Source: an uncultured Maribacter sp.
GTDB taxonomy: Bacteria; Bacteroidota; Bacteroidia; Flavobacteriales; Flavobacteriaceae
NCBI GenBank assembly: GCA_938038975.1
Contig: CALHVP010000189.1
Location: 1 to 58,512, forward strand
Length of the DNA stretch: 58,512 bases
Reading direction: 5' to 3'
Part shown: piece after piece, positions 1,125-50,640 of the stretch
How the letters are laid out: every line of letters starts with the position of its first letter
Numbering within the stretch: position 1 is the stretch's first letter
Translations under genes and position numbers: made by a program
Notes under the pieces: model-generated
Seen by the model: the letters and a program-made list of their open reading frames with translations, nothing else
Told to the model about the DNA's origin: nothing
Database searches by the model: none

Positions 1125-1339
1125 TCACAGTCGTTGAAATACGTAAAAAAGAGATTAAAAGCAGATTCTCCTTAATTCATGTCATTTCATCGAATAAAAA
1201 ATAATTTTTAACGTACCAACCTTAATTTTATTTAATATTACATCGTTGATATCCCCTATTGACACGAGAACAAAGAATACCCAATTCTTATAGACCTACT
1301 TCCCTGCGTTGAGCGACCTGCTTACAAATAGAACATTAT

Positions 1340-46946: not shown

Positions 46947-48845
46947 ATGAGTGACGCTATAAAGCATGAATGTGGTATATCGGTTATCCGATTACTAAAG
47001 CCTTTAGAATATTATAAGGAAAAATACGGTTCCGCATTTTATGGTGTGAACAAAATGTACTTAATGATGGAAAAACAGCACAATCGTGGGCAAGACGGTG
47101 CTGGTTTTGCAAGTATAAAATTAGACGTTGATGCAGGGCAACGCTACATGAGTCGTGTGCGGTCTTGTGAGCAGCAACCCATACAGGATATTTTTGCTCA
47201 GATAAATGATCGTATTAATAAGGAATTAAAGGAGCATCCAGAATATGAAAATGATGTAGCCTTACAAAAAAAGAACATTCCTTATATTGGAGAATTACTT
47301 TTAGGTCATGTACGTTACGGTACTTTTGGTAAGAACAGTATAGAAAGTGTACACCCTTTCTTAAGACAGAATAACTGGATGCATCGTAATTTAATTGTTG
47401 CAGGAAACTTCAACATGACCAATGTGCACGAACTATTTGATAATCTTATTCAGCTTGGTCAACATCCTAAAGAAATGGCTGACACTGTAACGGTTATGGA
47501 AAAAATAGGTCATTTCCTAGACGATGCGGTTGCTAAACTTTATAAGGAAATAAAAAAAGAAGGATACACAAAGCAGGAAGCTTCTGCCATAATTGCTGAC
47601 CGCTTAAAAGTTTCAAAAATCCTAAGAAGAGCCGCTAAAAATTTTGATGGTGGTTATGCTATGGCTGGCTTATTAGGCCATGGGGATGCTTTTGTTCTTA
47701 GAGATCCTGCTGGAATACGACCTGCATATTATTATAGAGATGAAGAAGTTGTTGTAGTTGCTTCTGAAAGACCCGCCATACAAACGGTATTCAACGTGCC
47801 TTATGAAGAGGTGAAAGAACTAGATCCGGGACACGCTATCATTATAAAGAAAAACGGCTCATCTGCCATCAAGCGAATTCTTGAACCTACAGAGCGTAAG
47901 GCATGTTCCTTTGAACGCATTTACTTCTCTAGAGGAAGTGATAAAGAGATTTACCAAGAACGAAAAGAGCTAGGAAAACTTGTATTTCCACAAATTTTAA
48001 AGGCGATAGACCACGATATTAAAAACACCGTATTCTCTTATATTCCCAACACTGCTGAAACTTCGTTTTTTGGAATGGTAAAAGAGGCACAAAACTACCT
48101 GAATAAGAAAAAAGAAGAACAAATACTTGCGATAGGTTCTAAAATTACTAGCGAAGAACTACATACTATTTTGGAGGTACGCCCAAGAATAGAAAAAGTA
48201 GCTATCAAAGATGCAAAATTAAGAACTTTTATTACCCAAGACGACAGTAGAGATGACCTTGTAGCGCATGTTTATGATATCTCTTATGGATCTGTAAAAA
48301 AAGGAGATAACCTTGTTATTATAGACGATAGCATCGTTAGGGGTACAACACTTAAAAAAAGTATACTTCGGATCTTAGATAGATTATCTCCCAAAAAGAT
48401 TATCGTAGTTTCTTCTGCACCGCAAATTAGATATCCAGATTGTTATGGGATTGATATGGCCAAACTAGAGGACTTTATTGGTTTTAAAGGTGCATTAGCT
48501 TTACATGAAGACCATGGCACAATGAATATCGTTGACGAGATATATGAAAAGTGCAAAAAACAAGTTAAATCCAAAGATGCGGATGTAGTCAACTACGTTA
48601 AAGAATTCTACGCTCCGTTTTCCGCAGATGAAATTTCGACTAAAATAGGAGAACTTTTAAGTCCGCCAGAGATGAATGCGGAAGTACAAATAATCTACCA
48701 AAGCATTTCTAATTTACATACGGCTTGCCCTAAAAATTTAGGTGATTGGTACTTTACAGGCAACTATCCAACACCAGGAGGAAACAGAGTAGTGAATAAA
48801 GCTTTCATTAATTTCTATGAAGGAAAAAACGAACGTGCCTATTAG
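46947..48845 (+). CDS. purF: Amidophosphoribosyltransferase (large flavobacterial form)
   Basis: A 632-residue enzyme that makes 5-phosphoribosylamine from PRPP and glutamine, the first step of purine synthesis. The N-terminal nucleophile Cys9 in KHECGISV lies after eight residues, so maturation probably removes a short propeptide, as known for Bacillus PurF. NRGQDGAGFAS and the PRPP loop VIIDDSIVRGTT (about 455-466) are present. It is longer than the usual 470-505 residues. A long hairpin begins directly after the stop. Confidence 0.9.
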   Translation: MSDAIKHECGISVIRLLKPLEYYKEKYGSAFYGVNKMYLMMEKQHNRGQDGAGFASIKLDVDAGQRYMSRVRSCEQQPIQDIFAQINDRINKELKEHPEYENDVALQKKNIPYIGELLLGHVRYGTFGKNSIESVHPFLRQNNWMHRNLIVAGNFNMTNVHELFDNLIQLGQHPKEMADTVTVMEKIGHFLDDAVAKLYKEIKKEGYTKQEASAIIADRLKVSKILRRAAKNFDGGYAMAGLLGHGDAFVLRDPAGIRPAYYYRDEEVVVVASERPAIQTVFNVPYEEVKELDPGHAIIIKKNGSSAIKRILEPTERKACSFERIYFSRGSDKEIYQERKELGKLVFPQILKAIDHDIKNTVFSYIPNTAETSFFGMVKEAQNYLNKKKEEQILAIGSKITSEELHTILEVRPRIEKVAIKDAKLRTFITQDDSRDDLVAHVYDISYGSVKKGDNLVIIDDSIVRGTTLKKSILRILDRLSPKKIIVVSSAPQIRYPDCYGIDMAKLEDFIGFKGALALHEDHGTMNIVDEIYEKCKKQVKSKDADVVNYVKEFYAPFSADEISTKIGELLSPPEMNAEVQIIYQSISNLHTACPKNLGDWYFTGNYPTPGGNRVVNKAFINFYEGKNERAY

Positions 48846-48846
48846 A

Positions 48847-48890
48847 TTTTATCGATGAAATACACAATTCTATGTATTTCATCGATAAAA
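48847..48890 (+). terminator. 18-bp hairpin directly after purF
   Basis: Perfect arms at 48847-48864 and 48873-48890 (TTTTATCGATGAAATACA and its complement) with an 8-nt loop. There is no long T tail after it, so it could be a weak terminator or an mRNA-stabilising 3' hairpin. Confidence 0.65.
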
Positions 48891-48934
48891 CAAGCACTTC
48901 AGCGACACAATAGATTCTTTGAGCTTAACAAAAT

Positions 48935-48942
48935 TATTTTTA
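48935..48942 (+). promoter_or_regulatory. Possible -7 element of small RNA copy 1 (TATTTTTA)
   Basis: It differs by one base from TAnnTTTG and lies 13 nt before the conserved hairpin, one more than in the other copies. A TTTG at 48918-48921 is upstream at a short 13-nt spacing, so this promoter looks weaker. Confidence 0.3.
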
Positions 48943-48947
48943 AACTT

Positions 48948-49019
48948 ACCATAGAATAAGTAGGTTAAGTTCATGGTAAGATTTGGGGCAAAAAAGGTGG
49001 AGACTTCTCCACCTTTTTT
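48948..49019 (+). ncRNA. Predicted small RNA, copy 1 of a tandem family
   Basis: A unit of about 72 nt. The 5' hairpin ACCAT/ATGGT encloses the loop AATAAGTAGGTTAAGTT (this copy has GAATAAG instead of GCATAAG). The linker TAAGATTTGGGG follows. The terminator stem AAAAAAGGTGGAG / CTCCACCTTTTTT (49,990s region: 48990-49019) has an ACTT loop. No plus-strand protein gene lies downstream, so it is not a leader. The sequence after it (TTATAAAC) matches that after copy 4, suggesting these two are closer relatives. Confidence 0.65.
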
Positions 49020-49248
49020 ATTTGTTATAAACTACCTGGCGTTGTAACTCCAAATCAATTATAAATATTCATTAGCACATCTATTAAGTCAAGTATCTAA
49101 GCTAGAGTTATTTATTTTTCAATCTTGAAATAAGAAGTAGTCCTTAAAAGTATACAATAGCAACGTCTAACTTCTTCTGAGGTAGATTCCCTTTTTACAC
49201 GTTTATCTCATTCACCTATAGATAAACGCTTTTGAACCCAATAAATTG

Positions 49249-49259
49249 GGTGTTTAACC
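49249..49259 (+). promoter_or_regulatory. Inverted-repeat operator candidate before small RNA copy 2
   Basis: GGTGTTTAACC has GGT/ACC arms around GTTTA. It ends 31 nt before the -7 element, exactly as the related site before copy 3 does. A regulator could bind here. Confidence 0.4.
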
Positions 49260-49267
49260 GATACCTT

Positions 49268-49297
49268 TTTGTACTTTGTATATGTAATATACCTTTG
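49268..49297 (+). promoter_or_regulatory. Promoter of small RNA copy 2 (TTTG, 18 nt, TACCTTTG)
   Basis: TTTG at 49268-49271 and TACCTTTG at 49290-49297 with an 18-nt spacer fit the flavobacterial -33/-7 consensus. The -7 begins 12 nt before the conserved hairpin, so transcription should start at or just before ACCAT. Confidence 0.7.
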
Positions 49298-49301
49298 AAG
49301 A

Positions 49302-49370
49302 ACCATAGCATAAGTAGGTTAAGTTCATGGTAAGATTTGGGGAAAAGACGAAGCTATGCTTCGTCTTTTT
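49302..49370 (+). ncRNA. Predicted small RNA, copy 2 of a tandem family
   Basis: A unit of about 69 nt. The 5' hairpin ACCAT/ATGGT has the loop AGCATAAGTAGGTTAAGTTC, followed by linker AAGATTTGGGG. The terminator AAAAGACGAAGC / GCTTCGTCTTTT (49343-49369) has a TAT loop. The 5' part is nearly identical to the other copies, while the terminator is wholly different from copies 1 and 4 yet still perfectly paired. A canonical promoter precedes it. Confidence 0.75.
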
Positions 49371-49611
49371 ATTTTTACAAAAACCTATGTTTAATTTGCT
49401 TATTATTTTACACTAAGTTGAAATTAAAATACTTTTAAGCAATTCCTTTGAACCTAGAATACATTACAAACAATTACTTCTGAGTTGCTATTGTTTTCTA
49501 GTCATATGTCCTTAAAATAAAAGAGAACTTCTTACAAAGCCGTTAAAGAGCTTATGTATTTTCTTTAATAATCAATCAATTATCTCATAACTGTATTTCA
49601 ACCAAGTAATA

Positions 49612-49623
49612 GGATGTTTATCC
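49612..49623 (+). promoter_or_regulatory. Inverted-repeat operator candidate before small RNA copy 3
   Basis: GGATGTTTATCC is a perfect inverted repeat (GGAT/ATCC). Compared with the copy 2 site (GGTGTTTAACC) the arms have changed while symmetry is kept. It also ends 31 nt before the -7 element. Confidence 0.45.
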
Positions 49624-49653
49624 AATACCTTTTTTTACTTTATACGTGTAGCA

Positions 49654-49661
49654 TATATTTG
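49654..49661 (+). promoter_or_regulatory. -7 element TATATTTG of small RNA copy 3
   Basis: An exact TAnnTTTG match beginning 12 nt before the conserved ACCAT. The -33 region is a T run where copy 2 has TTTTTG. The 37-nt promoter region aligns with copy 2 without gaps. Confidence 0.65.
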
Positions 49662-49665
49662 AAGA

Positions 49666-49736
49666 ACCATAGCATAAGTAGGTTAAGTTCATGGTAAGAT
49701 TTGGGGAAAAAGGTGGAGCTGTGCTTCACCTTTTTT
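49666..49736 (+). ncRNA. Predicted small RNA, copy 3 of a tandem family
   Basis: A unit of about 71 nt. The 5' hairpin, loop and linker are identical to copy 2. The terminator AAAAAGGTGGAGC / GCTTCACCTTTTT (49707-49735) has a TGT loop and one G-U wobble where copy 2 is fully Watson-Crick. The stem-apex similarity (GCTATGC versus GCTGTGC) and the shared upstream operator make copies 2 and 3 a sub-pair. Confidence 0.75.
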
Positions 49737-49859
49737 ATTTTCGTATATATCTTCTTTCAAAAAAGAATACATACACCTACTTTCCTTTTAACAAACACTA
49801 GGTTTAAAAAAGAAATTCATTTTTTTTAACATTTCTTTTTTTATTCCCCACAATACCAG

Positions 49860-49867
49860 TAATTTAG
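49860..49867 (+). promoter_or_regulatory. -7-like element TAATTTAG of small RNA copy 4
   Basis: One mismatch to TAnnTTTG, starting exactly 12 nt before the position equivalent to ACCAT. No upstream inverted repeat like those of copies 2 and 3 is seen. Confidence 0.4.
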
Positions 49868-49871
49868 TCTT

Positions 49872-49943
49872 GCCATAGCATAAGTAGGTTAAGTTTATGG
49901 TAAGATTTGGGACGAAAAGGGTGGAGACTTCTCCGCCCTTTTC
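49872..49943 (+). ncRNA. Predicted small RNA, copy 4 of a tandem family
   Basis: A unit of about 72 nt. The 5' hairpin is GCCAT/ATGGT, where the terminal A-U has become G-U, so pairing is kept. The loop AGCATAAGTAGGTTAAGTTT differs by one base. The linker is AAGATTTGGGA. The terminator AAAAGGGTGGAG / CTCCGCCCTTTT (49915-49942) has an ACTT loop and one U-G wobble. It is followed 16 nt later by the terminator of the convergent superoxide dismutase gene. Confidence 0.7.
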
Positions 49944-49959
49944 TATTTCTTATAAACAC

Positions 49960-49991
49960 AAAAAAACCACTTAGAAAGTTATCCTAAGTGG
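49960..49991 (-). terminator. Terminator of the superoxide dismutase gene
   Basis: On the minus strand, CCACTTAG / CTAAGTGG with a 9-nt loop is followed by seven T. It lies 40 nt past the stop codon of the gene. Confidence 0.8.
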
Positions 49992-50031
49992 CTGTAGTTA
50001 TAGCAATTAACAAGTATTTTCCTATATAATA

Positions 50032-50640
50032 TTACTTGTTTTCTGCGTATAATTTAGATACTTCATCCCAGTTAATTACATTGAAAAATGCATTTACATA
50101 GTCTGGTCGTCTGTTCTGATAATTAAGATAATAAGCATGTTCCCATACATCCAAGCCTAAAATAGGAGTTCCTTCACAAGCAACACCTGGCATTAACGGA
50201 TTATCCTGATTAGGTGTTGAACACACCTCTAACTTACCTCCCTTATGTACACAAAGCCAAGCCCAACCAGAACCAAATCTAGTACCTGCAGCGCTACTAA
50301 ATTTATTTTTAAATTCTTCAAAAGAGCCAAAAGCACTGTTTATTGCATCAGCTACTTCTCCTTTTGGAGTTCCGCCTCCGTTAGGTGATAAAACATTCCA
50401 GAATAATGAATGGTTATAAAATCCGCCGCCATTATTTCTAACTGCGCCGTTATTCATATCCAAGCCACCAAGAATAGTCTCAATTGACTTTCCTTCTAAA
50501 TCAGTCCCTTCGATAGCACCATTTAACTTTGTTGTATATCCGTTGTGGTGTTTTGTATGATGTATTTCCATTGTCCTAGCATCTATGTGCGGTTCTAGTG
50601 CATCATAGGAGTAAGGCAGTTTTGGTAATTCAAAAGCCAT
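50032..50640 (-). CDS. Superoxide dismutase (Fe/Mn family)
   Basis: A 202-residue enzyme that dismutates superoxide. Metal ligands are a His in HHTKHHNGY (about 27-35), a His in YNHSLFWN, and Asp and His in [18 protein letters not shown] (about 162-179). The GSGWAWL motif and NQDNPLM are also typical. The choice of Fe or Mn cannot be made safely from the sequence. No signal peptide, so it is cytoplasmic. It is divergent from the AddA-like gene. Confidence 0.95.

Follow-up and report, generated by a model that had tools for sequence, protein, structure and literature searches.

A tandem array of four small RNAs in Maribacter belongs to a Flavobacteriaceae-wide family predicted to block the translation starts of surface lipoprotein genes

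What is encoded in the gap between two convergent genes when it holds four copies of one short sequence? The question arises in a stretch of 58,512 nucleotides (nt) from an uncultured Maribacter sp. (assembly GCA_938038975.1, contig CALHVP010000189.1; hereafter the window), where the gap between purF (46947-48845, plus strand) and the superoxide dismutase gene (sod, 50032-50640, minus strand) holds four small RNA (sRNA) units of 70-74 nt each. We consider it likely that these are four paralogous sRNAs of a Flavobacteriaceae-wide family, which would act in trans by blocking the start sites of mostly envelope or exported targets. Since surface lipoprotein genes have translation start regions complementary to two invariant parts of the RNA, the sRNAs very probably switch these genes off. 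Conservation, promoter boxes, terminators, synteny, and recurrent complementarity support this view.

The units start at 48948, 49302, 49666, and 49872, with spacings of 354, 364, and 206 nt, exactly where a sequence-only reading of the window had placed them. All lie on the plus strand. Copy 1 (48948-49021) is first-type, with a linker ending in GGGGC; copies 2 (49302-49371) and 3 (49666-49738) are middle-type; copy 4 (49872-49945) is last-type, with a linker ending in GGGAC and a hairpin that opens with a G-U pair, as that reading had also said. A covariance model built from the four copies (R1) scores them at 100.9, 92.5, 97.4, and 99.9 bits, respectively. Each has a 5' hairpin enclosing the loop AUAAGUAGGUUAAGUU, then the linker AAGAUUUGGG, then a terminator. 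Their common core is CCATAGcATAAGTAGGTTAAGTTyATGGTAAGATTTGGG, and copy 1 reads AGAATAAG at the position where copies 2-4 read AGCATAAG. The 15-mer TAAGTAGGTTAAGTT has four matches in the window, all exact, when 0.40 are expected with up to two mismatches and none of 100 shuffles reaches four. The 5' hairpin is predicted in all four copies and in the consensus fold of the family alignment, with two hairpins in all. The fold z-scores of the copies range from -4.24 to -4.46 relative to dinucleotide shuffles (of 200 shuffles, one equals copy 2 and none equals copies 1, 3, or 4). We rejected a cis-acting leader, given the lack of a same-strand gene directly downstream: the earlier reading saw no plus-strand gene downstream of any copy, and no plausible one follows until 50760; before it there are plus-strand open reading frames (ORFs) of 42 and 47 amino acids. 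A coding reading (ATGGTAAGATTTGGG...) was rejected because the two types of the family described below, A and B, differ by one base within the conserved core.

Are the copies transcribed separately? TAnnTTTG is the -7 box of Bacteroidota-type promoters. This box, or a near form, precedes each of the four copies on the plus strand: TATTTTTA before copy 1 (48935-48942), a -7-like box read in the sequence whose position is conserved in the family, and TACCTTTG (49290-49297) and TATATTTG (49654-49661) before copies 2 and 3, both read in the sequence and in a comparison of upstream regions of the family. Copy 4 has an extended promoter element, CAATACCAGTAATTTAG (49851-49867), that is strongly conserved upstream of 43 last-type copies. 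In the distinct upstream sequences of the fetched loci, a TAnnTT(T/A)(G/A) box lies within 25 nt upstream of 46/48 first-type, 73/80 middle-type, 43/43 last-type, 53/75 type B, and 6/8 unclassed copies. A control window 20 nt further up contains it in 1, 3, 0, 12, and 2 cases, respectively. Escherichia coli-type promoters show no excess in 48700-50100 (4 vs. 6.9 expected), and the same interval has five terminator-like sites against 0.6 expected, four within the copies and the fifth behind sod on the minus strand (49965-49993). A long inverted repeat directly after purF (48847-48891, no strand assigned), read in the sequence and unlisted by the terminator scan, is the probable purF terminator and would separate this gene from the array. 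Because each copy has a box before it and a terminator in it, the array looks like four transcription units between the ends of two convergent genes. The independent transcription and the individual intrinsic terminators proposed earlier thus gain support, the former from the enrichment of the box in every class of copy. The units have what is expected of trans-acting sRNAs, i.e., their own promoter and intrinsic terminator, both as judged from sequence, and no ORF. Allowing two mismatches, the copy-4 element occurs in 8 genomes at 25 places outside arrays, against 13 for the reversed pattern; of three such places examined (L278, L281, and L289, where L denotes a fetched locus, as G does a genome and C a contig), two are inside ORFs and none stands before a start. 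The element is perhaps the site of a specific regulator or sigma factor.

Homologues were searched for with the model of the four copies, as had been proposed earlier. R1 matches 171 of 199 Flavobacteriaceae genomes at E 0.01, with one to seven matches each, including some background. Since matches near 30 bits (E about 1e-3) were judged to be background, seven genomes were dropped and we count the RNA in 164 of the 199 genomes, at a best E below 1e-4. An order-wide search of 296 genomes matched 42 Flavobacteriaceae, 40 of them at 70 bits or more, and left at least eight Flavobacteriaceae without a match; ten genomes of other families matched weakly (33.7-40.8 bits). A scan of named genomes for TAAGTAGGTTAAGTTYATGGTA gave at least 118 stretches. 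Among the matches listed, all 80 titles name Flavobacteriaceae genera, including Maribacter, Zobellia, Winogradskyella, Aquimarina, and Flavobacterium, or unclassed Flavobacteriaceae, Flavobacteriia, Bacteroidetes, or Bacteroidota. Of the named relatives compared, Maribacter and Zobellia records come closest to the window, with an identity of about 76-78% over 3 kb. The exact core had no match in viral contigs.

The position of the RNA is also conserved. Among the matches listed, purF (so named by the sequence-only reading and by our reading of its protein) lies upstream on the same strand in 102 of the 118 named stretches, and sod (annotated as superoxide dismutase in one matched record) lies downstream in 93, always on the opposite strand. 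Hence, the purF-sod slot is the usual place of the RNA and probably the ancestral one. Of the 16 stretches lacking purF, eight have fewer than 600 upstream bases (L115, L125, L145, L150, L162, L173, L215, L219). The other eight have at least 1 kb (L111, L120, L128, L139, L146, L153, L191, L226), so that true exceptions to the synteny exist. None of five neighbour genes was found in L111, L120, L146, and L173, and sod is absent from several stretches with purF and ample room, e.g., L134, L156, L193, L197, and L205.

Some loci depart from the common form. Two of the 164 genomes carry divergent or decayed forms. In a 5.8-kb contig of G045 without purF or sod match (L092, 3365-3448), the stem ends, linker, and terminator are the same and the loop is quite different, possibly a paralogue with other targets. 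In the purF-sod slot of G181 (L093, 5450-5525), a decayed form without the conserved loop retains GATTTGGGG and the terminator. Copies with a damaged linker (AAGATATGG, AACATGTGTG) at L018 1102-1179 and L020 790-867 are probably decaying paralogues. A recent tandem duplication is seen at G350:C4:179087-180134, where five copies have a near constant spacing of 240-243 bp.

The core is nearly invariant over genera, in 259 copies from loci that partly overlap and with redundancy kept. Nearly all of them have TAAGTAGGTTAAGTTYATGGTA followed by AGATTTGGG (type A) or by GATTTGGG, which is one base shorter (type B). Selection on RNA structure, which the sequence-only reading had deduced from the terminators, is confirmed in the family for the terminator stem. 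In an alignment of 64 distinct copies, which was fitted to the structure, 11 of 13 pairs of the terminator stem show two-sided changes and 96.6% of cells are paired. That structure-preserving changes reach into the 5' hairpin as well is not supported. This hairpin is too invariant to show covariation: two of its eight outer pairs never vary and a two-sided change is seen in one of the eight, in one sequence. The structure predicted anew on this alignment agrees. Near the subject of conservation, we observed a dispersed element (C269 in the window's own genome, and in relatives) that contains almost the entire 3' half of the sRNA core, as TAAGTTATGGTAAGATTTGGGG or a close variant (L006 1501-1522, L493, L494, L495, L496, L027 1465-1542). 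It adjoins a hairpin-like stretch, GCGCCCTAT..GGGTTTTTG..CAAAAACCC..GGATCC, and its other strand is antisense to the sRNA; the stretches of G000 and G016 are identical. This is perhaps a mobile element or a sponge.

What would such RNAs act on? Leaders of the form CCCAAAUC...(CUUA)ACCUACUUAUG, in which AUG is often the start codon, contain in antiparallel order the complements of the loop CAUAAGUAGGUUAAGUU and the linker GAUUUGGGG. The first clue came when five genomes of the genus were searched for CCCAAATCTTA: one leader also had ACCTACTTATG, its ATG being the start codon. Single 11-mers show no excess: CCCAAATCTTA has 27 places outside arrays against 22 for the reversed pattern (5 genomes), and ACCTACTTATG has 30 against 57 (12 genomes). 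It is the two-part rule at starts that is informative. Eight of the 30 distinct ACCTACTTATG places open an ORF, and CCAAAT lies 8-45 nt upstream in all eight, compared with one of the 22 places elsewhere (Fisher 1.5e-6, for a rule framed after these hits). A gapped two-part pattern, built to exclude the antisense of the sRNA itself, had 43 matches, spread over 33 of 120 genomes; the reversed pattern, used as control, had 19. We inspected 42 of them (G035:C17 was left out): 20 are at scored ORF starts, three (L357, L359, L381) at probable starts within a longer mechanical ORF, and the remaining 19 inside ORFs or away from scored starts, a number close to that expected from the control. When the sRNA itself served as the query of a plain DNA search, it matched, in antisense, a place just before the gene of a lipoprotein called T1 in G010.

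At the 20 scored starts, 16 products are predicted to be exported from our reading of their N-termini. They include CAP lipoproteins in seven genera (L351, L365, L368, L373, L377, L379, L384; PF00188 was checked for L379 and the other six were assigned by similarity), the T1 lipoprotein, a cadherin/Ig-like lipoprotein, a peptidase M57 lipoprotein, and others. The remainder comprises Fer4_19-type proteins from three genera and one ORF of 42 amino acids. The Fer4_19-type proteins (L364, L367, L391; PF06902 checked for L364) have the leader CCCCAAAT(A/T)ATGATCTACTTATGG and are a possible non-exported target. A second target class, AATCT(T)ACCATGA, was not found outside sRNA antisense in 2.1 Mb of fetched, non-random loci. 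We also saw CCCAAATCTTACCAAACCAAnCCTTnATCAAnGGCAAAAGCC near position 1500 of L241 and L265, in two species of the genus, away from a recognised gene start.

We also fetched orthologues by protein search alone. CAP proteins were found in 75 of 189 genomes (58 of the 78 listed matches were fetched), and T1 in all 31 genomes of the genus, in the window's own genome through a relative only 27-30% identical. A two-seed rule, i.e., CCAAAT followed downstream by at least 6 nt of loop complement, is passed by 35 of 37 leaders of T1 or its paralogue T1b and by 29 of 58 CAP leaders. It is passed by none of 934 control leaders (mechanical ORFs of loci L010-L239, which replaced an earlier control set, 9/1276 positive, that contained pattern-fetched loci). 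The motif is likewise absent from the leaders of 51 other lipobox-like ORFs, neither T1 nor CAP by a crude rule. The median duplex energy is -29.4 kcal/mol for T1 and -22.5 for CAP, compared with -12.7 and -12.4 for control leaders and with -14.6 and -16.15 for the same T1 and CAP leaders paired with the reversed sRNA. As examples, T1 of G001 gives -31.0 kcal/mol and T2 of G018 -34.2. Conserved seeds complementary to recurrent mRNA initiation regions, another mark of trans-acting sRNAs, are thus found, and the earlier suggestion that loop or linker contacts common targets gains support from leaders complementary to both segments.

Details of the leaders are informative too. Both parts of the motif are kept in 25 of 25 T1 leaders of the genus, 17 with ACCTACTTATG and eight with the ATG 3-4 nt further on. 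The complement of the other loop half, CTTAACCTA or CTTAACC(TA), is what the T1b leaders and some CAP leaders contain; CCCAAATC is present in eight of nine T1b leaders. Because the T1 motif stays while the ATG moves, and T1b and some CAP leaders use the other loop half, the motif points to pairing and not to a fixed start signal. Both partners were read in 26 hosts. Every sRNA copy seen there is type B (GGUAGAUUUGG); 18 of the hosts have AATCTA in the CAP leader, none has AATCTTA, and eight have neither. In type A hosts, AATCTTA is found in other target genes of G018, G031, and G041, and AATTTTA in G003. Four CAP leaders with CCAAATCTTA (L401, L423, L431, L436) are from hosts left out of this comparison. 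In many CAP leaders, CCAAAT is also preceded at a short distance by a TAATTTTA-like box.

From these data we infer transcription, pairing in the cell, repression, and a physiological signal, in a mechanism that could be as follows. Each sRNA would extend over about 70-74 nt, from the first base of its 5' hairpin to its own terminator, as deduced from boxes and terminators. Two seeds, one in the loop (CAUAAGUAGGUUAAGUU) and one in the single-stranded linker (GAUUUGGGG), would clamp a short leader of the target mRNAs, CCCAAAUC-spacer-(CUUA)ACCUACUUAUG. The linker would bind the 5' part of this leader, and the 5' seed (loop) its 3' part, often together with the start codon; about 10-11 nt on the sRNA side and a spacer that varies in length would separate the two paired regions. 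Since the leader and often the start codon would be covered, ribosome entry would be blocked, and initiation should stop, as shown for the Bacteroides sRNA family FopS in the accessible text of PMC11697453. Lipoproteins, along with other exported proteins, would make up most of the targets. Having several copies under promoters of different types may raise the dose and let different signals feed one regulon.

A number of observations weigh against this mechanism. Half of the CAP leaders (29 of 58) fail the two-seed rule, the 934 control leaders are mechanical ORFs, many of them from the purF-sod neighbourhood, and leaders within a target family share ancestry, so that p-values overstate independence. 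The strict gapped pattern has no match in 87 of 120 genomes, including the window's own assembly (85% complete), which has neither ACCTACTTATG nor a strict gapped match outside the array, and whose only T1 relative (27-30% identical) lacks the site. The contrast of type A with type B sets different genes of different lineages against each other, and AATCC, found in T1 leaders where the host is type A, fits neither type. The loop must open its stem for the longest duplexes. Finally, in G095, whose loop reads AAUUAGG, a compensation test gave four CCTAMTTATGR matches, equal to the reversed control, and no lipoprotein target; two are at or near ORF starts, of NqrC-like and YidC-like products by our own reading.

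The window itself has one candidate target. A relaxed two-part rule finds a single site outside the array, CCCAATTCTTA-TAG-ACCTACTT (1280-1301, plus strand), upstream of a CAP-domain (PF00188) lipoprotein ORF on the same contig (1340-1816, plus strand). This site is imperfect, with one mismatch in its first part, and the count is within chance (1 vs. 0.46 expected; at least one in 38 of 100 shuffles), which adds to the points above. What is notable is its position before a member of a target family. The leader of this ORF has the lowest duplex energy of 54 ORF leaders, -28.8, a value reached by 22 of 2000 shuffles.

How else could the conservation and the matching leaders be explained? Among RNAs that bind or titrate proteins are the 6S, CsrB, and Y types, and near-invariance could reflect protein contacts, with the leader matches being secondary. 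Across the family, some 35 nt hardly vary, which exceeds what two seeds alone usually require, and the decayed purF-sod copy L093 keeps GATTTGGGG and the terminator. We nevertheless regard a mainly protein-binding role as rather unlikely: the complementarity involves two distinct segments and leaders from gene families that are unrelated, and the type A and B linkers partly go with matching target letters in the hosts read. It is also unlikely, slightly more so, that the sRNAs pair with the same leaders to activate or stabilise the mRNAs, e.g., by 5' end protection. Judging from the TAATTTTA-like box of many CAP leaders, pairing seems to start near the presumed 5' end of CAP mRNAs and could shield it from decay. 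However, in many leaders the start codon or the sequence immediately ahead of it lies under the second seed, so that the ribosome would be shut out, and inspection of the leaders, without folding, gave no hint that pairing frees a start.

The composition of leaders in the Flavobacteriaceae is particular to them, and the motif occurs at starts. Hence, it could be a translation or transcription start signal of lipoprotein genes, to which the sRNA is complementary by coincidence. The complete absence of the motif from the control leaders and the other lipobox-like ORFs, the changing distance between the T1 motif and the ATG, and the use of CTTAACCTA by T1b and some CAP leaders make this very improbable. 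Finally, recent tandem duplications such as that of G350 are what one would expect of functionless repeats, relics of a mobile element or of a duplicated terminator. Yet, retention at one locus over the family, covarying terminators, promoter boxes, and the lack of the exact core in viral contigs leave next to no room for such an origin. Start-site-blocking sRNAs are thus the reading that we retain.

Is the RNA already known? The LhrC, OmrA/B, Qrr, and RybB/MicA types of sRNA are multicopy or envelope-directed and block translation starts; they belong to other phyla and resemble the RNAs studied here by mode of action. LhrC is mentioned in the accessible text of PMC11697453. In a scan of the window, no Rfam family reaches its gathering threshold, in line with the earlier statement that no described class was recognised. 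Flavo-1, which had been named for comparison, is not among the 49 Rfam matches at E up to 10. Sub-threshold matches (STnc40, sraA, and others) were rejected, as they rest largely on the terminator stem and on A/T runs. In the literature that we could access, including parts of PMC9331221, PMC5395568, and PMC5698469, and with subscription papers and supplements outside this scope, we found no description of the RNA. It may be among the 84 RNAs other than Rfp18 first described in PMC9723704, or among the Flavobacterium columnare candidates of PMC5395568, each available to us in part.

The nearest known family is FopS (Rfam RF04319). According to the accessible text of PMC11697453, these paralogous sRNAs pair with translation initiation regions, repress outer-membrane protein mRNAs of the SusC type, and consist of a single-stranded 5' stretch and a terminator; of 14 members, nine are intergenic, four antisense, and one derived from a 3' untranslated region. 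Both families are multicopy Bacteroidota sRNAs with a terminator hairpin and with pairing to initiation regions, which is predicted in our case. The FopS consensus of the Rfam alignment and model shares UUCAUGGUA--AGAUUU with copy 1. However, copy 1 scores 19.8-20.2 bits against a gathering score of 56, and the other copies are unlisted for FopS. The Flavobacteriaceae RNA has a 5' hairpin holding one seed, whereas the FopS 5' stretch is described as single-stranded; its copies stand in one array and its targets seen are mostly lipoproteins, whereas FopS has another gene layout and SusC-type targets. The UUCAUGG of the Flavobacteriaceae RNA faces the target spacer, outside both seeds. We rejected membership in FopS on account of the low score and of the 5' hairpin in all four copies. 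The shared block may reflect descent or convergence on complements of start codons. It is doubtful, in our view, that the RNA governs a core envelope regulon of the Flavobacteriaceae, kept at one locus since the family ancestor and sharing descent with FopS. Under such shared descent, an ancient Bacteroidota lineage of start-site-clamping sRNAs would have diversified by relocating its seed, which is at a free 5' end in FopS and in the hairpin loop and linker in the Flavobacteriaceae, with SusC-type targets in one branch and lipoproteins in the other.

Two further sRNAs were compared by description. GibS of Bacteroides thetaiotaomicron also has two seed regions, used for its two direct target mRNAs according to the accessible part of PMC11697453, whereas here both seeds would act on one leader. 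Rfp18 of Flavobacterium psychrophilum is, like our RNA, a flavobacterial sRNA conserved beyond its species; the available text of PMC9723704 gives predicted pairing in a third stem-loop, with metalloproteases and an adhesin as predicted targets. Identity with Rfp18 was rejected on the basis of that text, given two hairpins here and at least three stem-loops there.

What is new is the set of predicted targets for a previously unnamed RNA family found in most sampled Flavobacteriaceae. Its presence in most sampled genomes, at a nearly fixed locus and with predicted targets that have defined pairing sites, makes deletion and seed-swap experiments designable. It would give Rfam a family-wide model, and it would point to a physiological role, the control of surface lipoproteins, for otherwise unexplained exported proteins.

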